In this document: one piece after another, positions 4,102 through 16,300 of the stretch
Layout of the letters: every line of letters starts with the position of its first letter
Numbering within the stretch: the first letter of the stretch is position 1
Program-made: the position numbers and the translations under genes
Origin: a bacterium
GTDB lineage: Bacteria; JALSQH01
Length of the DNA stretch: 18,861 nucleotides
NCBI GenBank assembly: GCA_026985515.1
Contig: JALSQH010000024.1
Location: 1 to 18,861 of the forward strand
Direction: 5' to 3'
Notes under the pieces: model-generated
What the model was told of the DNA's origin: nothing
The model's input: only the letters and a program-made list of their open reading frames with translations
Databases searched by the model: none

Positions 4102-5193
4102 TTATTCCAGCATATTCCATTGTAATATTTCATCTTCCTCAATATCCCTTGAAGCTTTTTTGCCAATTACTTCCCCCCAGAATACTGGGGAAATGCCTGT
4201 CCCTGGCCTTTTTACTGTGATCTTGTCTTCAGTGATAATTTCTCCTTTTTTGATTTTTCTTTTTGCAACTATACTCCTTCTCGCGTACTTTCTTGAGTTT
4301 TGTTCAACTTCCAGAGGTTTTTTCACTCCATACCCAATGATCATTTTTAGCTTTTTTATTCTCTCCCGAAACTTCTTTATATCTTCAGGATCCATGGCGT
4401 GATAATGGTCATTTCCTGGAATGGTTTTATCAAGAGTAAAGTGTTTTTCTATTATTGATGCACCCAGTAAAAATGCTGTGGTAAGTACTTCCATTTCAGG
4501 GTCAGGAGGGACGTGATCAGAATAGCCCACAACAAACCATTTAAAAATTCTGTTCAATTCTCTTATGGCTCCAAGATTAGCGTCCCCTGGATCTGTTGGA
4601 TAGGAGAGAACACAGTGAAGTATTGAAATTTGATCGTTACCTTCTTCCAGGATCCAGCTTACTGCTTCCCATATTTCCGAAATTGTTGCAGCTCCTGTGG
4701 AAAGGATAACGGGTTTTTGCTTGTGTGCTATTTTTTTTATGAGTGGTTTGTTAGTGATATCTGCAGATGCAACCTTGAATGCTGGTACAAATTTGTCCAA
4801 AACATCAACTGCTTCTTCATCAAAGGGGGTTGAGAAAAAATCAACATTGAGGCTGTTGGCATATTCTGCCAGCTGACCATAGTCGTCGTAATCAAGTTTG
4901 TCGTATTTTTTAAACAGTTCATATTGACTTTGGGTAGGTTCTTTTCTGGTGTCCCAGTAAGCAGGACTGTTTTTTGATGCAAGGGAAGATGCTTTATAGG
5001 TCTGGAATTTTACAGCATCTACTCCTGCATTCGCAGCTTCTTTAATCATCAGTCTGGCTGCAGTAAGTAAGTCAATATTCTCCTTTTTTGCAATATCGTA
5101 ATAATTTACCCCTATTTCAGCAATGAGGTAAGGGGTATTATCTTCTTTTATGATTATTCTGTTACCAATTTTTATTTTTGGCTCCGGTAGCAT
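4102..5193 (-). CDS. NeuB-family nonulosonic acid synthase with SAF domain
   Basis: A 363-residue PEP-dependent aldolase-type enzyme expected to condense PEP with a free 6-carbon 2-acetamido sugar to give a 9-carbon nonulosonic (sialic-like) acid. Visible motifs: AEIGVN (25-30), KFQTYKA (62-68), STGAA (165-169), HCVLSYPT (193-200), GYSDH (223-227) and EKHFTLDK (249-256). His227 and His251 match the metal-binding histidines of NeuB. Residues about 305-363 form the antifreeze-like SAF domain. The loop after EKHFTLDK reads GNDHYHAMDPED, not the GPDH-type loop usual in sialic or legionaminic synthases, so the product sugar is uncertain. The start at 5193 is preferred over 5217 because GAGGAG sits 7 nt upstream. 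It overlaps the end of the fusion gene by 32 nt, so translation is probably coupled. Last gene of the minus-strand operon. Confidence 0.88.
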   Translation of the reverse strand: MLPEPKIKIGNRIIIKEDNTPYLIAEIGVNYYDIAKKENIDLLTAARLMIKEAANAGVDAVKFQTYKASSLASKNSPAYWDTRKEPTQSQYELFKKYDKLDYDDYGQLAEYANSLNVDFFSTPFDEEAVDVLDKFVPAFKVASADITNKPLIKKIAHKQKPVILSTGAATISEIWEAVSWILEEGNDQISILHCVLSYPTDPGDANLGAIRELNRIFKWFVVGYSDHVPPDPEMEVLTTAFLLGASIIEKHFTLDKTIPGNDHYHAMDPEDIKKFRERIKKLKMIIGYGVKKPLEVEQNSRKYARRSIVAKRKIKKGEIITEDKITVKRPGTGISPVFWGEVIGKKASRDIEEDEILQWNMLE

Positions 5194-6844
5194 CTTTCCA
5201 CTCCTCAAATTTTTCAATTATAAGTTTTTTTATCCTTTCCCTTCCTTTCCTGATTTCCCTTGCATAGGGGATAAGAAGAGTGTTCATCTGTTTTCTTTTA
5301 TTATAGTCAGTGAGTAATTCTCTCACTACTTGCATGATTTCATTGTCTTTTAATTCAGAGGCGAGGCCGAGAAATTTTATACCACGGCAGATTTTTGCAA
5401 AAGTATGGGTCATCTCTCTTGGATTCTGGGCTATTACCAATGTGGGGGTAGCGGAAGAAACTGCTTCATATACTGTTCGTCCATTTGAGGTAATGATTAG
5501 ATCAGCCTCAAACATATATTTCGCCATTATCGGGGAACCACTTATCATTTCAATCTGATAACCTTTTTCTGACAGATTGACGATTAAGTTTTTTAGTTCG
5601 TCAGTGTGCTTATACCCGAGTCCTGTGATTACTGTTACTCTAACATCTTCAGGGAGAATGTCGGGCAGGATTTTAATTACTCTTTTTGTAAGGTTTGAAG
5701 GGTCTGTTCCGCCAAAAGTTATAAGTATATTTTCTACTTTTTCCCGAATTGAATCCTTTATTGGAAACATGTAGAATTCCTCTCTGAGACATTCGTATCT
5801 ATAACCAAAAAATGCATTTTCTTCTCTTCCGCTCCATTCATATAGAGCGTTTATTAAAAGATCTGCTTTTCTTGATCCACTACCAACATCTTCAAAGTTC
5901 ACCACGAAAATTCCTTTTTGTTTTAGTTTATCAATATATTTTTCCCCTGTGTCAAGAATATCGTTTATTAAAATATCCGGTGAAATCTGATCTATTTTTT
6001 TCAGAAGTTCATCTTCCGATCTATAGAGCTCAATGGGAAATGTGTGTTCTTTGAGTTTCATGTATCCAGGTTTTTTTTCAGGGTTCGTGAGAAAAATGAC
6101 TTCATGCTCCGGGAACAGGTTAGCTATGGTGAGAGCTCTGTATATGTGCCCCAATCCCATTTCATGGGATCCCTCTGTTCTTATAGCTATTTTGAGTCGT
6201 TTCATAATTAGTTCGGCAATTATGAGCTGCTCCCAGCTGTCAATGTCCAGGCTTTCATCTTCATTCAGTGAGTATATACCTATTTTTACTCCAAATCGTG
6301 AGCGATTTTTAAGGATTACATCTCTGTAAGTTATTACGAGTCCTCCAGTTTCTTCGTAAACTGGTTTGAGAAACTGTCTGTTTGCCCTTTCTTTATAAAA
6401 AGGGAAAAATTTTCCATTTGCTTCTATCCAGAAGAGATGCGTTTTTTTTCTAACAGATACAAGAGTGTCAAATTTTTCCTGCAAAAAGTAATTCAAAGCC
6501 TTTTCCAGCGTTGTTGCCTTCAGGAGGGGTGAAGTGGGCTGCAGGGTAATTATGATATCTCCGAAATTAATTTTACTGATTACATCTATAATCACAGGCT
6601 CCAGTGTAACATTATCTCTGGCAAGTTCTTCTGGTCTCAGGAGAACCTCTGCACCATATATTTTTGCAACTTCCTTAATCAGAGGATCTTCTGTTGAGAC
6701 AATAACTTTTGAATGAGGAATTTTTTTTGCAGTGGTTATAGCATAATAAATCATTGGTTTATCATTTATAAGCCTCAGATTTTTCCCGGGGATTCCTTTG
6801 CTTCCTCCTCTGGCAGGAATGATAATGAGAATTTCACCTTTCAT
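5162..6844 (-). CDS. Bifunctional CMP-nonulosonate cytidylyltransferase / PseG-like UDP-sugar hydrolase
   Basis: A 560-residue fusion. Residues 1 to about 212 are an acylneuraminate cytidylyltransferase (NeuA/PseF/SpsF type) with ARGGSKGIPGKN (11-22), LQPTSPL (101-107) and DIDSWEQ (200-206); it would attach CMP to a nonulosonic acid. From about 215 a GT-B-like PseG/SpsG hydrolase begins, with GLGHIYR (230-236), GGTDPSN (378-384) and TSNGRTVYEA (452-461); this family removes UDP from a UDP-diacetamido-trideoxyhexose. The two activities flank the synthase step carried out by the next gene, so these two genes could perform hydrolysis, condensation and activation. The ATG at 6844 is directly preceded by in-frame TAA TAA and has no clear Shine-Dalgarno. 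A TATAAT lies 8 nt upstream. Bacillus subtilis has separate spsF and spsG; the reading as one chain here is direct. The exact sugar is inferred only. Confidence 0.87.
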   Translation of the reverse strand: MKGEILIIIPARGGSKGIPGKNLRLINDKPMIYYAITTAKKIPHSKVIVSTEDPLIKEVAKIYGAEVLLRPEELARDNVTLEPVIIDVISKINFGDIIITLQPTSPLLKATTLEKALNYFLQEKFDTLVSVRKKTHLFWIEANGKFFPFYKERANRQFLKPVYEETGGLVITYRDVILKNRSRFGVKIGIYSLNEDESLDIDSWEQLIIAELIMKRLKIAIRTEGSHEMGLGHIYRALTIANLFPEHEVIFLTNPEKKPGYMKLKEHTFPIELYRSEDELLKKIDQISPDILINDILDTGEKYIDKLKQKGIFVVNFEDVGSGSRKADLLINALYEWSGREENAFFGYRYECLREEFYMFPIKDSIREKVENILITFGGTDPSNLTKRVIKILPDILPEDVRVTVITGLGYKHTDELKNLIVNLSEKGYQIEMISGSPIMAKYMFEADLIITSNGRTVYEAVSSATPTLVIAQNPREMTHTFAKICRGIKFLGLASELKDNEIMQVVRELLTDYNKRKQMNTLLIPYAREIRKGRERIKKLIIEKFEEWKDATGAKNKNW

Positions 6845-6852
6845 GATTTTTT

Positions 6853-6858
6853 ATTATA
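6853..6858 (-). promoter_or_regulatory. Possible internal extended -10 promoter, leaderless
   Basis: On the minus strand TGGTATAAT gives a perfect -10 with the extended TGN element, but the -35 position (AGAAAA at 17 bp) is poor. It lies in the 19-nt gap after the flippase stop, 8 nt before the ATG of the fusion gene, so any transcript from it would have almost no leader. The first operon gene has the same TATAAT-8 nt-ATG arrangement. Confidence 0.35.
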
Positions 6859-6863
6859 CCAGA

Positions 6864-8111
6864 TCAGCCAGAATTTTTTCTATATTTCCTGTAAAATATG
6901 AAACCAGTGGTAAGTGAAAGAGCTGCTGCTAAGATAGAAGATATCATTGTTGCAACGGCGGCTCCAGAATCACCCATTATTTTTATAAGCGTATAGTTCA
7001 AAAAAAGATTTGCAATAAATTTTGAGAGAGTGATTCCAGAGATATAAACTGTTTTTTTGTACCAGAAGTTAAATGTTGCTCCAAGGTAGTAAACACTTGT
7101 GATTGCTTCTCCCACGCCCAGAAAAACAAAAAATTTTGAAGCTGATGAAAAACTTTTTCCCAGATAATATTTGTAGTAAAATGGGGAAAAGAACAGAAGG
7201 ACGATAAAAAGGAATGCAACTATTCCAATTATTTTTACTCCAGTTTCCCAGACCTTCCTGTAATCTCCCTTTTTTATTCTTTCATATGCATATGGCACAA
7301 AAGCCAGGTGTATGGAGTTTGCGATCATACCAATAATTGAAGCATATGCATAGGAGACATTGTATAGTCCAACTGATTTTACTCCTATCATATTATTGAG
7401 GAAAATTTTATCCGTGGAGGCAGCAAGAATTCCTGTCAAATTGTGAAGGATTAGAGGACCTCCAAAAAAAAGTAACTCCTTAATCTGAGAAGTTTTTATC
7501 TGCAGATCAACAAGTTTTTCTTTTAGCATAAAGTATATTATGGTAAGTCCCATAACTACATTTGCTATAAATATTCCTCCAGTTCTACCCTTCCATCCTG
7601 TGTAAAGAATTACAACAAGGTAAAGGGAAAGGCCTGCATTTAGTAGAGAAGATGTGTTTTGAAGAACAGCATAAGTTAAAGATCTTTCTTCAACTCTTAA
7701 TATTCCAAGATAAATTGTAGAAATTGTCAGAAAAAGCGAGTTTAACACACCTGCGACAAGCCATATGGTGGGGAGGGATAAAAAACTGGAGAGGGGGGAA
7801 GAAAATATCAGAGTTATGGTGACAAACAAAAGACTCATTGAAACACTTAAAATCAGTGCACCTCCAATATATGAAGCCAGTATCTTTTTCTCAGTGTCAT
7901 AGTAAAACCTCACAACAGCAGAGGAAGAATTAAGGCTGATTAGAGGAACAAGGATTGCCGTCCATAAAGTAAACATAGCGATATGACCATAATCTTCAGG
8001 GGTTAATATTCTTGTTAAAATGGGTAGAAGTAGAAATCCTATCCCTTTATTTAAGAAGTTTGAAAAAGTGTAAACTAAACTGTGGAAAGTGAGTTTATTA
8101 CGGAATTTCAT
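6864..8111 (-). CDS. Wzx-type polysaccharide flippase 1
   Basis: A 415-residue polytopic membrane protein of the polysaccharide transporter (MOP/MATE-like) superfamily, expected to flip lipid-linked sugar units across the inner membrane. The N-terminus, FLNKGIGFLLLPILTRILTPEDYG (in part), is characteristic: an amphipathic start, then the conserved Leu-Pro and the T-x-x-D/E-Y-G turn. The remainder is about 12-14 hydrophobic segments with short basic loops and a basic C-terminus (FYRKYRKNSG). The ATG at 8111 overlaps the pyruvyl transferase stop by 14 nt, with only a weak GGA upstream, so translation is probably coupled. The substrate cannot be read from sequence; its place in the nonulosonate operon suggests a unit carrying that sugar. 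A second flippase is encoded at 17144-18409. Confidence 0.87.
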   Translation of the reverse strand: MKFRNKLTFHSLVYTFSNFLNKGIGFLLLPILTRILTPEDYGHIAMFTLWTAILVPLISLNSSSAVVRFYYDTEKKILASYIGGALILSVSMSLLFVTITLIFSSPLSSFLSLPTIWLVAGVLNSLFLTISTIYLGILRVEERSLTYAVLQNTSSLLNAGLSLYLVVILYTGWKGRTGGIFIANVVMGLTIIYFMLKEKLVDLQIKTSQIKELLFFGGPLILHNLTGILAASTDKIFLNNMIGVKSVGLYNVSYAYASIIGMIANSIHLAFVPYAYERIKKGDYRKVWETGVKIIGIVAFLFIVLLFFSPFYYKYYLGKSFSSASKFFVFLGVGEAITSVYYLGATFNFWYKKTVYISGITLSKFIANLFLNYTLIKIMGDSGAAVATMISSILAAALSLTTGFIFYRKYRKNSG

Positions 8112-9279
8112 TTATAAGTTTTTCCATAAGAGGGTATGTTTTTGCAATTGTTAAAATCTGTGATCTTGTTAAAATGTAACCAGCCTTTTTTTCATGTCTA
8201 ATAAAATCTCTAATAACTTCTGCAAGCTTTGAAGGATTACAGATTTTCCTGTTGCTTTGATACCATAAGAGGTATCTGATAAGCTTTTCAGGGAAATAAG
8301 TGTATTTATCTTTGAAGGGTGAAAGTGCTAAAAAATTAAAGGATTTTGAGACTGCAAATGATCTACCATCTTCAACGATGAGAATGGAAGGCTTCAAAAG
8401 AGAGAGTGAAAGTATATGTCCATGTAACCTGAAGCCAATATGCATTTTGCTGTTGTTGTACCATAGAATCATTTTTTCAAGAGAATTTTCAGTGTCAATC
8501 CATTTAAGGCCATGGTTGTTTAAAAATTTTTTGAAACGTGAGGCATTTCTAAGATAAGTAATGTTATTCTCTGTTTCTCCGTAAATAGTTAAAAAGAGTT
8601 CACTGGTAGGGTGATGAAAAATAACAACAATATTATCAATTTCTCTCAGGTGAAGCAGGAGTTCTTTTATATAATCCATAAAAAAGCGATTGAAAAACAT
8701 ACGATTTGGAGTCGAAAAGAGAAGATAATCACCGTTATGCCTCAAAGGGATATCGTATGTGGAACTTTTAGAAATTTCAACCACTTCCTCTGAATACATT
8801 GCAGGACAGCCGGTCAGGAGTAATTTCTCATCAAATATTTTTTTCAAAGTACGATATGAAACGATGTCTCTGACACCATGATAGAAACCCTGGTTTTTTA
8901 TAAAATTGAGAAACATTCTGGTTTCTTCATTGAAACTAACCGTGTTGCATAAATCTCTCCGATAATCATTATGGCCGATCCCGAATAGAATCACGGGAAT
9001 ATTATTTTTTATCACTTCGTCTATGTTAAGTGAAGGATATATCTCGGGAATCATATTATGCTGAAGAGCTGGTCCACCTGTGAGTAGTATTGCTTTGAAA
9101 TTCTTTAAATTTTCTGGATCGATCGTTTCTCTTCTGTCGATTTTAAGTATTCTTTTATTTCCTTTTACTTTTGTAAATAACTCAATTGCTCTTCTGGTAA
9201 TAAGTTTATCTCCAACATTTCCGCTTCTTGTATCTCCTGTAAGAAAAAGGTAACTTTTTTTTGTTAATTTTTTATCCAT
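8098..9279 (-). CDS. Polysaccharide pyruvyl transferase family protein
   Basis: A 393-residue cytoplasmic protein of the CsaB/WcaK-like family, which transfers pyruvate from PEP to a sugar as a ketal, giving an acidic cap. Seen: an N-terminal SGNVGD (19-24), an AILLTGGP strand and loop (63-70), ILFGIGHND (97-105), VRDIVSYR (136-143) and the C-terminal GFRLHGH (282-288) followed by a Pro at 297. These fit the GT-B-like architecture and the family R-x-H motif. An in-frame TTG at 9291 could add four residues, but ATG 9279 is the more ordinary start; neither has a strong ribosome site. It overlaps asnB by 16 nt and the flippase by 14 nt. Some family members act on other substrates, so the pyruvylation target, and even the reaction, remain inference. 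Confidence 0.82.
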   Translation of the reverse strand: MDKKLTKKSYLFLTGDTRSGNVGDKLITRRAIELFTKVKGNKRILKIDRRETIDPENLKNFKAILLTGGPALQHNMIPEIYPSLNIDEVIKNNIPVILFGIGHNDYRRDLCNTVSFNEETRMFLNFIKNQGFYHGVRDIVSYRTLKKIFDEKLLLTGCPAMYSEEVVEISKSSTYDIPLRHNGDYLLFSTPNRMFFNRFFMDYIKELLLHLREIDNIVVIFHHPTSELFLTIYGETENNITYLRNASRFKKFLNNHGLKWIDTENSLEKMILWYNNSKMHIGFRLHGHILSLSLLKPSILIVEDGRSFAVSKSFNFLALSPFKDKYTYFPEKLIRYLLWYQSNRKICNPSKLAEVIRDFIRHEKKAGYILTRSQILTIAKTYPLMEKLINEIP

Positions 9280-11102
9280 TTTTTGAACCAAAGTTCTGTT
9301 AAAATGACTTTCCAGATATATTCTGGATACTTACCATTACCCGAGATGAATTGAGTGTAATCCCTTATTATTTTTCGATGATCCCAGAATAAGTGATTTT
9401 TGAAATCAGAACTTTTAAAAATTTCCTCTGCTATATTTTTCCCTTTATCAGAGAGAAGTATTGCAGAATCTGGTGTCTGGAAACCTATTTTGTCGATTCT
9501 TTTTCTAATCTTATCAGGTATAACGCCTCTCATACTTTTTCGGAGTATAACTTTTGAGATACCATTATTTATCTTTTCTCTTGTTGGAAGGGACAGAAGT
9601 AGTTCAACTACCCTGTGATCCACGAACGGGACTCTGCTTTCCACGCTCCACCTCATAGAATTTTTATCTTCAAATCTCAGGAGTTGAGGAAGGGAGGAAA
9701 CTGTTTCTGCATATATGGATATTTCTCTAAAATTTCTCTGCTCCCATTTTAATGGAAGATTAAAAATTTCATGTTGGTGGTTTGTAAGATACTCATAATT
9801 TAAAAAACTTATTTCGTTTATTTTGTAAAGGGAAAGCCTTAAATTCCTGGGTAATAAAAGTATCAACAACCCTTTTGCTGGACCTAAAGAATGATAGAGT
9901 TTCATGTACAATTTTATTTCCCTGCCGAGCTGAATAAAATAGCGATTTCCAAGAAGTTCTAAAAAGTAGTAGCTGAACAACCAGTGGTATCCTCCCATCA
10001 ATTCGTCACTGCCCTGACCATCAAGGAGAACCTTTGTTGCGTTTTCTCTGGCAAGCCTCATAACTCGATACTGACCATATATGGAAAGTGTTTCAAAAGG
10101 TTCTTCCTGTGTCCAGATTAAGTCCTCAAGATCATCAAGAAGTTCTTTTTCAGTGAATGTGGTAGTGTATCTCTTCACTCTACATTTTTTTTCAACTTCT
10201 TTTTGATAAGTGCTTTCATCTATTCCTCTTCCAGGGAAGATCAGTGAAAAAGCTGAAATTTCTTTTCCTTCTCCAAGAATTTCTCTCATAAGACACACAA
10301 TAGAGGAACTATCAAGACCACCGCTGAGGCATGAACCAACAGGAACATCTGCAACAAGTCTTTTTTCTACTGCATCTTTTAAAAGATTTTTAAAATTTTC
10401 ATGTGCATTTTCCCCCTCAATAAACCTGATTTTTTCCCTCACATCATAATATTTTCTCAGGATAAGTTTACCTTGATTTATATCAAAAATTGCATAAAAA
10501 CCAGCTGGAAGCTGATTTATGTTTTTAAAAAAAGTTTCATCTCCCCAGTTCATCAGGTGAAATGCAAGAAATTGCAAAAGACTTTTTTCGTTTACTTCTG
10601 CTGTAATTTCTCTACTGGCTAAAAGCCCCTTAATTTCTGAACTGAAAATAAGTTTTTTCCCGTCGTAGAAATAGTAAAGAGGCTTTATCCCAAATCTGTC
10701 CCGGCTTAAAAAAAGTTTTTTTTCTTTTGAATCGTAAATAGCGAAGGCCCACATGCCAATAAATTTTTCCAGAGCTTTTTCCCCCCACTGAATATAAGCT
10801 TTGAGAATAACTTCTGTATCTGTATTGGATCTGAAGGAAAACCCTTTCTTTATTAGTTGTTCCCTAATTTCCCTGAAGTTGTAAATTTCTCCATTATGAA
10901 CAATACAGAATCGTTTCGTTTCGTCACACATTGGTTGTTTCCCTTTTTCTGAAAGGTCAAGGATGGATAGTCTCCTGTGCCCGAGGGAGACTCTATCATC
11001 TATGAATATTCCTTCGTCGTCCGGTCCCCTATGTTTAACTGCCTCATTCATAGCCTTTATTTTTTTTCTATCTGGCCAGGTTATTCCATTTATGCCACAC
11101 AT
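9264..11102 (-). CDS. asnB: Asparagine synthase-type glutamine amidotransferase
   Basis: A 612-residue glutamine-hydrolysing amidotransferase. Cys2 is the class II glutaminase nucleophile, followed by RGPDDEG (25-31), GHRRLSILDL (41-50) and HNGEIYNF (69-76). The ATP-pyrophosphatase domain carries the PP-loop SGGLDS (260-265) and, later, GQGSDELMGG. Length and motifs are complete, so both half-reactions should work. A GGAG lies 4 nt before the ATG at 11102. It overlaps the glycosyltransferase upstream by 13 nt and the pyruvyl transferase downstream by 16 nt. In polysaccharide loci, such paralogues (for example the WbpS type in Pseudomonas) are thought to amidate the carboxyl of uronic-acid sugars rather than make asparagine. 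With uronate-type sugars made by the adjacent plus-strand genes, a sugar-amidating role is plausible here but inferred. Confidence 0.9.
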   Translation of the reverse strand: MCGINGITWPDRKKIKAMNEAVKHRGPDDEGIFIDDRVSLGHRRLSILDLSEKGKQPMCDETKRFCIVHNGEIYNFREIREQLIKKGFSFRSNTDTEVILKAYIQWGEKALEKFIGMWAFAIYDSKEKKLFLSRDRFGIKPLYYFYDGKKLIFSSEIKGLLASREITAEVNEKSLLQFLAFHLMNWGDETFFKNINQLPAGFYAIFDINQGKLILRKYYDVREKIRFIEGENAHENFKNLLKDAVEKRLVADVPVGSCLSGGLDSSSIVCLMREILGEGKEISAFSLIFPGRGIDESTYQKEVEKKCRVKRYTTTFTEKELLDDLEDLIWTQEEPFETLSIYGQYRVMRLARENATKVLLDGQGSDELMGGYHWLFSYYFLELLGNRYFIQLGREIKLYMKLYHSLGPAKGLLILLLPRNLRLSLYKINEISFLNYEYLTNHQHEIFNLPLKWEQRNFREISIYAETVSSLPQLLRFEDKNSMRWSVESRVPFVDHRVVELLLSLPTREKINNGISKVILRKSMRGVIPDKIRKRIDKIGFQTPDSAILLSDKGKNIAEEIFKSSDFKNHLFWDHRKIIRDYTQFISGNGKYPEYIWKVILTELWFKKWIKN

Positions 11103-12502
11103 TTTTCTCCAACCTGTAAAATTATCTCAATCACTCTTTCGTAATCATAGAGGTTCTCAAAAGCCTGCAATATATTTTTCTTGGATGGTTCAAACTCAAT
11201 ATCAAAGAGATCTGGAATTTTGATAACTTTTGCCAGCTTCAATTGTATGAGTTCACTCATCAGGGAGGTAAAGGGTGAATCTATAATAAAGTTGTTTATT
11301 CCAAATGCTGCTGCTTCCCAGGAAACTGTTGAGAAATAAGTTATATGGGCATAAGCGATTGAAAGAAGTTCATATAGAGAGACTTCATCATCAGTCACAG
11401 CATAAATATTTTTTCTCTTTAAGAGATCTTTGTAAGCAATTGTGTACCATTTTTTTTCTGCTGGGTGAATTTTAAGTATCAAAACGCAATTGTCTGGTAT
11501 CTTTAGCTGAGAGAAATCTTCAACAATAATCTGCTCTGTGTCAATTTGTGTTGTTAAGACGTAAACCTTTTTCTTTGCTGGAATTCCGAGCTTCTCTAAT
11601 TTCTTGTAAGCTTTTTTACGAAGCAGCTCCAGGTGTGTAATATTGTAGCTCAACCATGGATAACCACTTACAATAATTTTTTCTGGATCCCAGTAGGTAC
11701 CATTCTTCACCATCACCTCTTTAAAAATCCTGCCCCATGTGAAGATGCATCCTGGGACCATTTTCGATAGATGTATTTTTTTATCACCGGTAACATATCC
11801 TGGATGTTTTAAATGAATGATCCCATGCTGAAGTTCAAAGTTGATAACTCCGTTTCTATTAGCTGCGTAAAAAAGAAATGGTTTTATTTCGTCATACCAT
11901 GTGATAGATCCTATGATTGAAGGATTTTTGAGTTTTATTACTTTGTCAATGTATGTGGCAAGTATAACTCTTCTTGAAATTGTTCTTAATATTGCCGTTG
12001 CAACTTTTTCTGGCAGGTAGGGAGGAAGTTTGATAAGTGTTTTTAATGCACTTCCTGTAATGTCAGCGAATCGTGATAACATTGGAAGATCATTGATTAT
12101 TTTTTTCCCGGGGTAGGTTCTGTTGTTAGGATTGTAACTTATTACTGGTTTTTCCCATGTTTTAGGAAAGAAATCTGAAAAGATATTGAATGATCTTTCT
12201 TCATCATCTTTTCTTTCCACAGAGATCGGGGTAATAAACCAGTTTTTGCTGGAGGTAATGTTCATGAGATTGTTTTTCAGAAAAAATTTTGAGGTATTGA
12301 AAAATTTTTTAAGAAATTTAAGACTATTCCGGATCTTTTTGGGGGAATTGTCAGTGCTTATCCCAAAGTCAGAGTAAAGGAGATAAAAGACAGATTCCAT
12401 CCGTGCTGCAGGCCAGGGTTTAAATCCCGCGAACTCATATTCCCAGAGATTAAAATCTTTTTCTACTTCACGGATAAAATCAAAAGCTTCATCAATTCTC
12501 AT
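11090..12502 (-). CDS. Putative GT-B glycosyltransferase, possible nonulosonate transferase
   Basis: A 470-residue protein, first gene of the minus-strand operon. The N-terminal 140 residues (with FKPWPAAR at 27-34) match nothing I can name. The C-terminal half resembles the capsule synthesis / CDP-glycerol glycerophosphotransferase-like GT-B fold: LQHGIIHLKHPGY (224-236), VSGYPWL (278-284), LKIHPAE (343-349) and STVSWEAAAFG (391-401). An HP motif followed by a Ser/Thr motif also occurs in bacterial sialyltransferases and KpsS-type Kdo transferases. As the only transferase beside genes making a CMP-nonulosonic acid, it is the best candidate to add that sugar; this is inference, and the D/E-D/E-G motif of sialyltransferases is not seen. 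No Shine-Dalgarno precedes the ATG at 12502; TATAAT sits 8 nt upstream. Confidence 0.68.
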   Translation of the reverse strand: MRIDEAFDFIREVEKDFNLWEYEFAGFKPWPAARMESVFYLLYSDFGISTDNSPKKIRNSLKFLKKFFNTSKFFLKNNLMNITSSKNWFITPISVERKDDEERSFNIFSDFFPKTWEKPVISYNPNNRTYPGKKIINDLPMLSRFADITGSALKTLIKLPPYLPEKVATAILRTISRRVILATYIDKVIKLKNPSIIGSITWYDEIKPFLFYAANRNGVINFELQHGIIHLKHPGYVTGDKKIHLSKMVPGCIFTWGRIFKEVMVKNGTYWDPEKIIVSGYPWLSYNITHLELLRKKAYKKLEKLGIPAKKKVYVLTTQIDTEQIIVEDFSQLKIPDNCVLILKIHPAEKKWYTIAYKDLLKRKNIYAVTDDEVSLYELLSIAYAHITYFSTVSWEAAAFGINNFIIDSPFTSLMSELIQLKLAKVIKIPDLFDIEFEPSKKNILQAFENLYDYERVIEIILQVGEKCVA

Positions 12503-12598: not shown

Positions 12599-13561
12599 AT
12601 GCCCAAAAACTTTGCGATCATTGGGGTTGCAGGTTATGTCGCCCCCCGCCATCTCAAGGCGATTAAGGAAACGGGAAACAGGCTGGTTGCTGCTCTTGAT
12701 AAGTGTGATTCAGTGGGTATCCTTGATCAGTATTTTGATGATGTGGATTTTTTCACCGAGTTTGAAAGATTTGACAGACATGCTGAAAAGTTGAGGAGGA
12801 TGGGGGAGGATAAAAGAATACATTATGTCAGTATATGCTCTCCCAACTACCTCCACGATGCCCATATAAGATTCGCACTGAGAATAGGGGCAGATGCAAT
12901 TTGTGAGAAACCACTTGTTTTGAATCCGTGGAACCTCGATGCACTTGAAGAGATGGAGAGAGAAACTGGCAAAAGAGTTTACAACATACTACAACTGAGG
13001 GTTCATCCTGCCATTCTTGCTCTCAAAGAGAAGGTTGAAAAGTCACCGCCGGATAAGATATATGACATCGACCTTATTTACATAACTTCCAGAGGGAAGT
13101 GGTATTTCATTTCATGGAAGGGGGATGTGTCAAAGTCTGGAGGTATTGCAACGAACATAGGTATTCACTTTTTTGATATGCTTCTCTGGATATTTGGTAA
13201 AATGAAGCACAGCGAGGTACATTACTCAGATCCGAGAAAGATGGGAGGGTACCTTGAGCTGGAGAGGGCAAGGGTGAGGTGGTTTCTCTCTCTCGATAAA
13301 AGAGATCTTCCACCCCGGGCAGTTGAAGAGGGGAAAACGACCTACAGAAGTATACTCATAGATGGAGAGGAGATAGAGTTTTCAACTGGTTTTACAGACT
13401 TACATACTGTTGTTTACAGGGAGATACTTGAGGGAAGAGGTTTTGGGATCAGCGATGCCCGTCCCTCCATTGAGTTGACTTATATGATTAGAAACTCTTC
13501 TCCAATTGGGATCAGGGACACTTCTCATCCCCTTCTTGTGGGAGCGGTCAGAGAAAAATGA
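12599..13561 (+). CDS. wlbA: UDP-N-acetylglucosaminuronate 3-dehydrogenase (Gfo/Idh/MocA family)
   Basis: A 320-residue NAD-dependent oxidoreductase close in sequence to WlbA/WbpB, which oxidises C3 of UDP-GlcNAcA to the 3-keto sugar that is then aminated in the UDP-ManNAc3NAcA pathway. Diagnostic stretches: IIGVAGYVAPRHLKAI (7-22), LVAALDKCDSVG (29-40), FFTEFERFDRH (51-61), SICSPNYLHD (78-87), the cofactor/catalytic EKP (103-105), YNILQLRVHPA (128-138) and GGIATNIGIHFFD (181-193), which holds the catalytic-region His190. Length is normal. AGGAG lies 6 nt before the ATG. The stop overlaps the next start in an ATGA junction. The aminotransferase and acetyltransferase (WlbC and WlbB types) are not in the window and must lie elsewhere if the pathway is complete. 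Confidence 0.9.
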   Translation: MPKNFAIIGVAGYVAPRHLKAIKETGNRLVAALDKCDSVGILDQYFDDVDFFTEFERFDRHAEKLRRMGEDKRIHYVSICSPNYLHDAHIRFALRIGADAICEKPLVLNPWNLDALEEMERETGKRVYNILQLRVHPAILALKEKVEKSPPDKIYDIDLIYITSRGKWYFISWKGDVSKSGGIATNIGIHFFDMLLWIFGKMKHSEVHYSDPRKMGGYLELERARVRWFLSLDKRDLPPRAVEEGKTTYRSILIDGEEIEFSTGFTDLHTVVYREILEGRGFGISDARPSIELTYMIRNSSPIGIRDTSHPLLVGAVREK

Positions 13562-14643
13562 AGGTTGTATCCATAGTTGGAGCAAGGCCACAGTTTGTTA
13601 AGGCAGGTATTGTGTCCAGGGAATTGAGGAATAGAGGGGTGAGGGAAATATTTGTTCACACGGGACAGCATTATGATTTTGAGATGTCAGAGGTATTTTT
13701 CAGGGAGCTCAATCTCCCCGAACCAGATTATTATCTGGGAGTTGGTTCCGGAACCCACGGTGAGCAGACAGGACGAATGTTAATAGAAATTGAGAAGGTT
13801 CTCCTCAAGGAAAATCCTGATGTGGTTCTTGTTTATGGAGATACCAATTCAACTCTGGCCGGTGCACTCGCTGCCGCCAAACTTCACATCGACGTTGCTC
13901 ATGTTGAAGCAGGATTGAGAAGCTACAACATGGAGATGCCAGAGGAGATAAATAGAGTCTTAACGGATCATATCTCGAAATTTTTGTTTGCTCCCACTGA
14001 AACTGCGGTTAAGAATTTGAAAAGAGAGGGGATTGAGAAGGGAGTGTATCTTGTTGGAGATGTTATGTATGATGTTGCCCTTGAGGTGCTTTCAAAAGTT
14101 GACGAGAGAGGAATTCTTTCGAAGTGGAATCTCCACCCGGATGGTTACATACTTGTAACCATTCACAGAGCAGAGAATACAGACAGTGAGAATCACCTGA
14201 GAGAGATTGCAGGTGCACTGAGGGAATTATCTCTTAACCACAATCATAAAATTTTTTTCCCGGTTCATCCCCGAACCAGAAAGAAACTCGAAGAATACAA
14301 TCTCCTTGAAGTACTGGATGTACCCAATCTTATCCTTTCCAGACCTGTTACCTATTTTGAAATGGTTGTACTTGAGAAGAATGCTGCTGCCATAATAACT
14401 GATTCTGGAGGGGTTCAGAAAGAGGGTTTCTTTTTTGGAACCAGATGTGTAATACCGAGAAATGAAACAGAATGGGTTGAGCTTGTTGAGACAGGCTGGA
14501 ATATACTCTCTGGGGTAAAGAGTGAGGATATTGTAAAATCAACTCTGCAGATTATTTCTGGTGATCCTCCTGAGATCGGGAAAAGATTTTATGGAGAAGG
14601 TGATGCAAGTAAAAAAATCGCAGAACTTCTCACTTCTAACTGA
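13558..14643 (+). CDS. Non-hydrolysing UDP-sugar 2-epimerase (WecB/WbpI family)
   Basis: A 361-residue epimerase that inverts C2 of a UDP-2-acetamido sugar through a 2-acetamidoglucal-type intermediate. Motifs: VGARPQFVK (7-15), HTGQHYD (34-40), YGDTNSTLAG (93-102), HVEAGLRSYN (115-124), MPEEINR (127-133), HRAEN, HPRTRKK and DSGGVQKEG in the C-terminal Rossmann domain. WecB acts on UDP-GlcNAc, whereas WbpI/WlbD acts on UDP-GlcNAc3NAcA. The immediate coupling to wlbA (ATGA overlap) and the short S-Y-N-M-x-MPEEINR form favour WbpI/WlbD, but sequence inspection cannot settle the substrate. The 3' end overlaps the following exported protein by 41 nt. Confidence 0.87.
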   Translation: MKVVSIVGARPQFVKAGIVSRELRNRGVREIFVHTGQHYDFEMSEVFFRELNLPEPDYYLGVGSGTHGEQTGRMLIEIEKVLLKENPDVVLVYGDTNSTLAGALAAAKLHIDVAHVEAGLRSYNMEMPEEINRVLTDHISKFLFAPTETAVKNLKREGIEKGVYLVGDVMYDVALEVLSKVDERGILSKWNLHPDGYILVTIHRAENTDSENHLREIAGALRELSLNHNHKIFFPVHPRTRKKLEEYNLLEVLDVPNLILSRPVTYFEMVVLEKNAAAIITDSGGVQKEGFFFGTRCVIPRNETEWVELVETGWNILSGVKSEDIVKSTLQIISGDPPEIGKRFYGEGDASKKIAELLTSN

Positions 14644-16300
14644 GTTTTTTCTTGTGTTTCTTCTCTTCAACCCTGTTAACTTACTCGGATGGAATACATT
14701 TGTGGTCAGGGGGGATTTGAAAAATGGCCTTTTAATTGACAATGGAGTTTATTTTATTGGAATTGGCGGGGAGAAATCTTCAAAACCGGGTATGATAACA
14801 GAGCTTAAACTGCACAATTCAAATTTCAATTTCAGCGCAGATATTGGTGATTATAATCTATTCTTCCCTGAATTTCATGTCGTGTGGAAAGATTTCAGAC
14901 CCTCCTATCCTGGAGTGCCAGGTTATTACAGGGGGGATTTACATGGAACAACCAGAATTGCTCGTTACTGGGAAAAAGGTAGTTTCCTCTATGTGAAGGT
15001 AAAGTGGATCAATGGATGGATTGATGCTGAATGGCTCTACGCCATACCGTACGGGAAAAATTTCTTCACAGTTGACATAGAGAGAATTGTCAGGAAAGGC
15101 TATGTCTATACAAATTACCAGCAATGCACAATGGTCAATCCCGATATGAAAGTCAGTTACATTGTGGATGAAATGGGTCAATTTGTGAAAACATTTGATG
15201 CAGAGAAAGGGTACATGCCCTCTACTTGTAAAGAATACATAATGTTTGGAGCTATTGACAGGGGGATGGCAAAAAGATATCCAGCTTTTGCGTGGTATGA
15301 TCCGGAGAGAAATGTCAGCATTGGTATGATAACCACATGGGTTTCGTCCAATCAGAGAAAAGTAATTTCCTATCATGGTGGTGGATCTTCGCTTAAACAC
15401 CCTGGTTTTGGAGAAGGACAGTGGAACTGGTTTGGAGATGCCGATGATGGCTCCAAGTATTTACCCTCAGGCACAAGATTTGGAATGGAAATAGTTTATG
15501 TGGTGGGAAGGGGTGACCCTGAGGAAGTCGTTGATAAATTTAACAGGAGAATTTTCAGGGAAAGTATAGATAGAGGTGAGAAAATTGCTCCTGATATTTT
15601 TACAGCTGGATGGGGAGGAAGAAGGTCTATGAAGGGTGAGAACTGGAAATATAATTACAATTTTCCCACTATTTCTGGAAACTGGGTCTCTGATCATTTT
15701 CTCTTTGCCCACAATTCCTTTATTCTACCATGGATGAAGAATGGTGTTTCTGGTGTGGGGGATGCGATTTTTTCTATCTGGGTGAAGGGCAAAAAAGGGG
15801 GAAAAGAAGTTAATTTGACCCCTGTGTATGACCCGGATAAAAAGCCAGTTGAGATGGGAGGAGATGGCAGTTATGGATGGGTAAGGTGGTACAATCCCGA
15901 ATTGAAGGTCTGGACAAAAATAGAGGTTTCGAAAGGAAAGAATGGCAGGAATTTTACAATTTCTTCAGCGGTCACTGGCAACACTACGTTAAGGCCTTTT
16001 ATTTTTATAAAACCGGGAAGAAATATTGTTTTTAAAACAGCGAAGGATGGCTGGGTATTTTTCAGGAAGGGCTATGGGGGAATATGCGTGAAAAACTCCA
16101 GGCATAATAGACTGATTAAATCAGGTGCTAATTTTGAGATACCTTTTACCGGAAAAATTGCTCTGAATATGGTGGTGTTAAAAGGTGAAGAGAATGTAAA
16201 AAGTGGATGTTCTGTTGCCCACGATTCCATAATGTTTTACAGAGACCTTCTTCCGCCTTCCTATCTTGGTGGAAGACTTCCCTATGGATTCAGATTTTGA
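14603..16300 (+). CDS. Exported protein of unknown function in polysaccharide operon
   Basis: A 565-residue protein I do not recognise. ATG 14603 is preferred because GGAG sits 6 nt upstream and the start gives a clean signal peptide: KK near the N-terminus, hydrophobic LLTEFFLVFLLFNPVNLLG (11-29), and mature sequence from about W30. Starts at 14561 and 14591 in the same frame would lengthen the n-region and lack good ribosome sites. The mature chain is rich in Trp, Tyr, Phe and Gly, with four Cys (175, 209, 495, 536), and alternates beta-strand-like segments. Notable stretches are YRGDLHGTTRIARYWEKG (109-126), ISYHGGGSSLKHPGFGEG (255-272) and VVGRGDPEEVVDKF (300-313), the last resembling the end of beta-sandwich domains in carbohydrate-active enzymes. 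A periplasmic lyase, hydrolase or modifying enzyme is possible. It overlaps the epimerase by 41 nt. Confidence 0.8.
   Translation: MQVKKSQNFSLLTEFFLVFLLFNPVNLLGWNTFVVRGDLKNGLLIDNGVYFIGIGGEKSSKPGMITELKLHNSNFNFSADIGDYNLFFPEFHVVWKDFRPSYPGVPGYYRGDLHGTTRIARYWEKGSFLYVKVKWINGWIDAEWLYAIPYGKNFFTVDIERIVRKGYVYTNYQQCTMVNPDMKVSYIVDEMGQFVKTFDAEKGYMPSTCKEYIMFGAIDRGMAKRYPAFAWYDPERNVSIGMITTWVSSNQRKVISYHGGGSSLKHPGFGEGQWNWFGDADDGSKYLPSGTRFGMEIVYVVGRGDPEEVVDKFNRRIFRESIDRGEKIAPDIFTAGWGGRRSMKGENWKYNYNFPTISGNWVSDHFLFAHNSFILPWMKNGVSGVGDAIFSIWVKGKKGGKEVNLTPVYDPDKKPVEMGGDGSYGWVRWYNPELKVWTKIEVSKGKNGRNFTISSAVTGNTTLRPFIFIKPGRNIVFKTAKDGWVFFRKGYGGICVKNSRHNRLIKSGANFEIPFTGKIALNMVVLKGEENVKSGCSVAHDSIMFYRDLLPPSYLGGRLPYGFRF

Follow-up and report, generated by a model that had tools for sequence, protein, structure and literature searches.

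A fused cytidylyltransferase and PseG-like protein encoded beside neuB, a candidate bifunctional ulosonic-acid enzyme of bacteria and methanogens

In the legionaminate pathway of Bacillus subtilis, SpsF, SpsG and SpsE are encoded by separate genes with the dehydratase SpsM upstream, and they supply the same three functions that we propose here for one fused protein and its NeuB partner (PMC7439481). SpsE (1vli) is the closest solved structure to that NeuB, from which it differs in having no GNDHYH motif. The fused protein has two further sets of relatives among characterized enzymes. Its first half shares fold, CTP motif and metal-binding aspartates with the CMP-ulosonate synthetases of the NeuA/PseF type (1eyr, 6ifd, 9t4z, 9ftb), but differs from them in being joined to a second enzyme. 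Its second half shares with the UDP-6-deoxy-AltdiNAc hydrolase PseG of Campylobacter jejuni (3hbm/3hbn) a GT-B fold, the aligned histidine of a GxGH motif, the sequence GGTD and a NeuB-family neighbour. Unlike that hydrolase, to which it is 22% identical, the PseG-like half carries longer C-terminal helices and the invariants GR..E and E..H, scores below the PseG cut-off, falls in a clade of its own and is usually fused; nor are the pathway partners PseB, PseC and PseH linked to the fused gene.

The gene lies in an 18,861-nucleotide stretch of bacterial DNA (contig JALSQH010000024.1), which we call the window. We put at roughly 70% the probability that its 560-residue product is a bifunctional ulosonic-acid enzyme working with the adjacent NeuB.

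Domains, motifs and predicted structure

The fused gene occupies positions 5162..6844 on the minus strand, as an open reading frame of 560 amino acids that runs from an ATG start to a TAA stop with no internal stops. Residues 1–215 (6200..6844) form a cytidylyltransferase half of the NeuA/PseF type, matching Pfam CTP_transf_3 at residues 7–136 (97.6 bits against a gathering cut-off of 22.6) and NCBIfam PseF at residues 7–214 (E 1.1e-33). Residues 217–553 (5186..6196) form a PseG-like GT-B half, matching NCBIfam PseG at residues 218–472 (E 2.3e-39) and Pfam Glyco_tran_28_C at residues 376–520 (23.3 bits against 22). These matches confirm the original prediction of a single continuous frame joining a NeuA/SpsF-like to a PseG/SpsG-like domain. 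Both halves score below the curated cut-offs of the corresponding equivalogs, at 116.7 against 205.7 bits for PseF (TIGR03584) and 135.7 against 153.55 bits for PseG (TIGR03590).

The signature motifs were likewise predicted to be intact in both domains, and they are. With its CTP_transf_3 domain, the first half holds the CTP-binding motif RGGSKGIPGKN (residues 12–22; 6779..6811), which fits the family pattern RGGSKGI..KN, and the sequence LDID (residues 199–202; 6239..6250), whose metal-binding aspartates D200 and D202 correspond in an alignment to Neisseria NeuA residues D209 and D211. In the second half, H233 of GLGH (residues 230–233; 6146..6157) aligns with H17 of Campylobacter PseG (3hbm), so that an alignment places the catalytic residues of both domains where they are expected. 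FGGTD is intact at residues 377–381, and G455, R456 and E460 of GRTVYE (residues 455–460; 5465..5482) are invariant in the clade of fused proteins, to which the window protein conforms in having both halves in one frame, GxGH, GR..E, E..H and an adjoining NeuB with GNDHYH. All 67 full-length relatives keep the histidine of GLGH, whose counterpart H17 is the catalytic-site histidine of the GxGH motif in Campylobacter PseG.

An AlphaFold2 model of the fused protein, built from 28 relatives, has a mean pLDDT of 92.9 and a pTM of 0.87 and is confident across the junction, where the helix at residues 204–215 leads directly into the strand at residues 218–223, the first of the second half; there is therefore no linker between the halves in the model. 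Confidence is high for both predicted folds. The N-terminal half matches CMP-ulosonate synthetases with tied scores (9t4z, Z 30.0; 6ifd, 29.4; 1eyr, 29.3), and because of the tie the top rank of 9t4z, a CMP-Kdn synthetase, was not used as a pointer to Kdn. The C-terminal half best matches MurG (3s2u, Z 27.9 over 309 residues), against Z 25.1 over 267 residues for PseG (3hbn). PseG is shorter than this half, whose closest structural counterpart is a glycosyltransferase; hydrolysis is therefore not certain, and the half might instead be a MurG-like transferase using a nucleotide sugar rather than a hydrolase that feeds NeuB. We consider such a transferase quite unlikely: in sequence searches the half is matched by PseG (E 2e-39) and by none of the MurG families, and the company that it keeps, described below, points the same way.

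An extended −10-like sequence, TGGTATAAT, with TAGAAA 18 nt upstream, lies at 6853–6882 (minus strand) in the short gap right before the ATG of the fused gene; such sites are about as frequent in the region as chance would give.

A widespread cassette with a distinctive NeuB

A scan of genome contigs returned 74 loci, nearly all of which match the whole query, at about 30–43% identity, and one further fused homologue was found in an unrelated complete genome (G064). The carriers include Bacillota, Bacteroidota, Campylobacterota, Omnitrophota, Actinomycetota, Pseudomonadota, Methanobrevibacter, Methanocorpusculum and others, a spread over many phyla, methanogens among them, that indicates an old and widespread fusion. 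Fused forms had been suspected to be listed in databases already; with about 70 relatives the layout is widespread rather than rare, and we rejected the idea that it is new to this window. A chance fusion or an assembly artefact specific to this genome has a virtually negligible probability, since about 66 further full-length homologues, in unrelated assemblies from many phyla and forming one clade, have the same continuous frame; a stop or frameshift near residue 213, and with it a sequencing artefact there, is excluded in practice. In a tree of PseG-like domains, to be read with caution for its long branches outside the fused clade, the fused proteins form one supported clade apart from canonical PseG. 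Matches in Acinetobacter, Solidesulfovibrio and a Sinorhizobium plasmid seemed fused at first; on inspection of two of them (Acinetobacter, L032; Solidesulfovibrio, L033), PseF and the PseG-like protein proved to be separate adjacent genes. A phage collection yielded only single-domain cytidylyltransferase matches and no fused protein. Three IMG/VR contigs labelled viral (L111–L113) hold fused homologues beside NeuB and may be host DNA.

The gene that follows encodes a NeuB-family synthase of 363 residues with a SAF domain (4102..5193, minus strand). Its ATG at 5193 lies 7 nt after a GAGGAG Shine–Dalgarno sequence, a placement that bears out the predicted 32-nt overlap with the fused gene. The protein exceeds the Pfam gathering scores for NeuB (269.1 bits) and SAF (65.6 bits) and falls short of the equivalogs NeuB_NnaB (340.6 against 399.65) and PseI (258 against 340.25). 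NeuB is present at 67 of 72 fused loci, in 42 cases within 60 nt downstream on the same strand. All 67 of the NeuBs at fused loci carry the motif GNDHYH, found here at residues 260–265 (4399..4416, minus strand), for which the aligned solved SpsE, meningococcal NeuB and a PseI have no counterpart, holding other residues at that position.

The window locus is a surface polysaccharide locus. Six tightly packed minus-strand genes run from 12502 to 4102 and encode, in order, a glycosyltransferase-like protein (11090..12502; a weak NCBIfam match to the BFO_1060 family, and a neighbour at 24 of 72 loci), an asparagine-synthase-like amidotransferase, a polysaccharide pyruvyl transferase family protein (8098..9291; Pfam; a neighbour at 20 fused loci), a Wzx-type flippase (6864..8111; Pfam Polysacc_synt; a neighbour at 35), the fused protein and NeuB. 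The plus strand then carries genes for a GFO/IDH/MocA oxidoreductase, a WecB-type epimerase (wecB, 13558–14643), an unnamed protein and a Wzz-like protein; between the last and WecB lies an open reading frame of 579 amino acids (14561–16300) with no Pfam match.

The fused gene is a real, conserved variant of a known pathway whose component enzymes are already known. As far as can be told, what is new is the family-wide link of the fusion with a GNDHYH-bearing NeuB, the pattern in which the NeuA half is replaced, and the mismatch of the family with known upstream routes. The literature searched, in which most subscription journals are missing, contained no paper on the fusion, an absence that proves little.

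Natural replacement of the NeuA half

The core of the CTP motif is kept in 62 of 67 full-length fused proteins. The remaining five (L093, L099, L101, L102 and L104) have lost the CTP motif together with both metal-binding aspartates, and at a sixth locus, L100, the NeuA half is missing altogether. A separate cytidylyltransferase gene, KdsB/SpsF-like, lies nearby at exactly these six loci and at none of the 66 others (Fisher p 6e-9, uncorrected for kinship); unlike the NeuA/PseF-type synthetases, then, one fused subclade has lost the motifs and appears to use a separate enzyme. The wrecked proteins form one clade nested inside the fused clade and L100 stands elsewhere in the tree, so that the pattern amounts to some two independent events rather than nine, the three further cases described next included.

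A search of 793 genomes that used only the NeuB motif, and was thus blind to the fusion, gave ten new true NeuBs. Four accompany an intact fused gene, and there the extra cytidylyltransferase is absent; three, from close relatives, accompany a fused gene with a wrecked NeuA half, an extra cytidylyltransferase and KdnB; and three have a separate cytidylyltransferase-like gene but lack a PseG-like partner, for which reason we rejected GNDHYH as an exclusive marker of the fused cassette. Those last three loci are L224, L227 and L230, of which L224 has instead a class III aminotransferase-like protein, an SDR and an SpsF-like cytidylyltransferase.

This replacement pattern argues strongly for a NeuA half that acts as a cytidylyltransferase in the intact members, the window's included. 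Retention of the wrecked half suggests that it has a structural role, and L100 and the wrecked members together suggest that it is dispensable to the hydrolase and NeuB steps. Even with the NeuA half wrecked or missing, the PseG-like half remains associated with NeuB, as would be expected of a step that supplies NeuB, which counts further against a MurG-like glycosyltransferase.

Proposed pathway and candidate sugars

In the pathway that we favour, the PseG-like half would cleave a nucleotide sugar, probably a UDP sugar, and so release the free sugar, as its homology suggests; NeuB, to judge from its own homology, would condense the free sugar with PEP into a sialic-acid-like ulosonate; and the N-terminal NeuA half would join this to CTP, yielding a CMP-ulosonate destined for a surface polysaccharide that other genes of the operon may make and export. 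Enzymes acting before and after NeuB had been proposed from the outset, and the order hydrolase, NeuB, cytidylyltransferase is supported by homology and by the replacement of the NeuA half; the activities themselves are predicted ones. We infer that the PseG-like half is a hydrolase and that it acts on something other than the 6-deoxy sugar on which the pseudaminate and legionaminate routes depend. Channelling of the free sugar between the fused protein and NeuB is plausible, if hypothetical.

The textbook alternative would be a plain PseF–PseG fusion of the pseudaminic-acid pathway, which hydrolyses UDP-6-deoxy-AltdiNAc and yields CMP-pseudaminate with a PseI-like NeuB. PseG and PseF are indeed the best NCBIfam matches, and the window's genome (97.6% complete) has adjoining PseB-like and PseC-like genes, both below cut-off (177 against 408 and 369 against 423.5 bits, respectively). 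Against this, every equivalog cut-off is missed, the window's NeuB scores higher with NeuB_NnaB than with PseI, and pseB, pseC and pseH are not regular members of the cassette. The best PseB match stays below 90 bits in 10 of 28 carrier genomes, including G064, which is rated 100% complete, although most of the genomes reached through loci have no completeness value. We therefore regard a pseudaminate fusion as unlikely, a judgement to which the KdnB-bearing subclade, discussed below, also contributes. The label PseG-type holds by homology (E 2.3e-39); the pseudaminate substrate that it might imply does not fare as well, given the missed equivalog cut-off, the separate clade and the absence of PseB from several carriers. 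For the window's own organism, the PseC-like and PseB-like pair, which adjoin on another, short contig of its genome (L191, positions 445–2691; G000 contig C200), leaves a 4-amino-6-deoxy sugar as a candidate.

Other known routes fit the family no better. The ten carrier genomes that lack PseB contain no LegB over cut-off and no NeuC; only one carrier genome of 15 has a LegB above its cut-off and only three of 17 a NeuC above its own, and both routes were rejected. Alternatively, WecB might make UDP-ManNAc and the PseG-like half release ManNAc from it, giving CMP-Neu5Ac without NeuC, an idea suited to the window, which holds wecB and whose genome lacks NeuC. As WecB is absent from 8 of 28 fused-bearing genomes, the complete G064 among them, UDP-ManNAc was rejected as a general substrate, and we hold this route to be very unlikely. 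A search near PseC-like genes in carrier genomes for upstream enzymes found no consistent module. At one Methanocorpusculum locus (L196, 8724–18999), the fused gene comes after genes for WecB, an aminotransferase, dehydrogenases and an N-acetyl sugar amidotransferase (WbuX).

KdnB acts on Kdo by oxidising its terminal CH2OH, a group that 9-deoxy sugars such as pseudaminate and legionaminate lack. Close homologues of this Kdo 8-oxidase (5k8c) adjoin the fused gene at L099, L101 and L102 (E 1.7e-93 for L102), with an aminotransferase gene and the KdnB-like gene lying just upstream, and are absent from the window's cassette. Their presence implies a terminal CH2OH, and so a non-deoxy terminus, in the sugar of that one subclade. 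Taken with the missing PseB, LegB, NeuC and WecB, this suggests that at least some of the fused family probably use a non-6-deoxy precursor, and the sugar of the pathway is probably not a textbook one. The same combination of a wrecked NeuA half, an intact PseG-like half, a KdnB-like oxidase and a separate cytidylyltransferase occurs at L099, L101, L102, L225, L226 and L228, in some cases with an aminotransferase; the product of this subclade is possibly a terminally aminated ulosonic acid.

Our broadest reading, tentative and held at a little under even odds, is that the fused protein and its GNDHYH-type NeuB constitute a separate, widespread ulosonic-acid route in bacteria and methanogens, which would start from a nucleotide sugar other than the 6-deoxy ones behind pseudaminate and legionaminate, dispense with NeuC and lead to a new or unassigned sugar. 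The two-gene unit of fused gene and NeuB is small enough for rebuilding in vitro, and the loci at which a separate gene has naturally replaced the NeuA half offer a ready test of the role of each half. If the reading is true, many genes named by homology as NeuA, PseF, PseG or sialic acid synthase serve the synthesis of a different sugar, and where pseudaminate or sialate is predicted in gut bacteria and methanogens, the prediction would have to be corrected.
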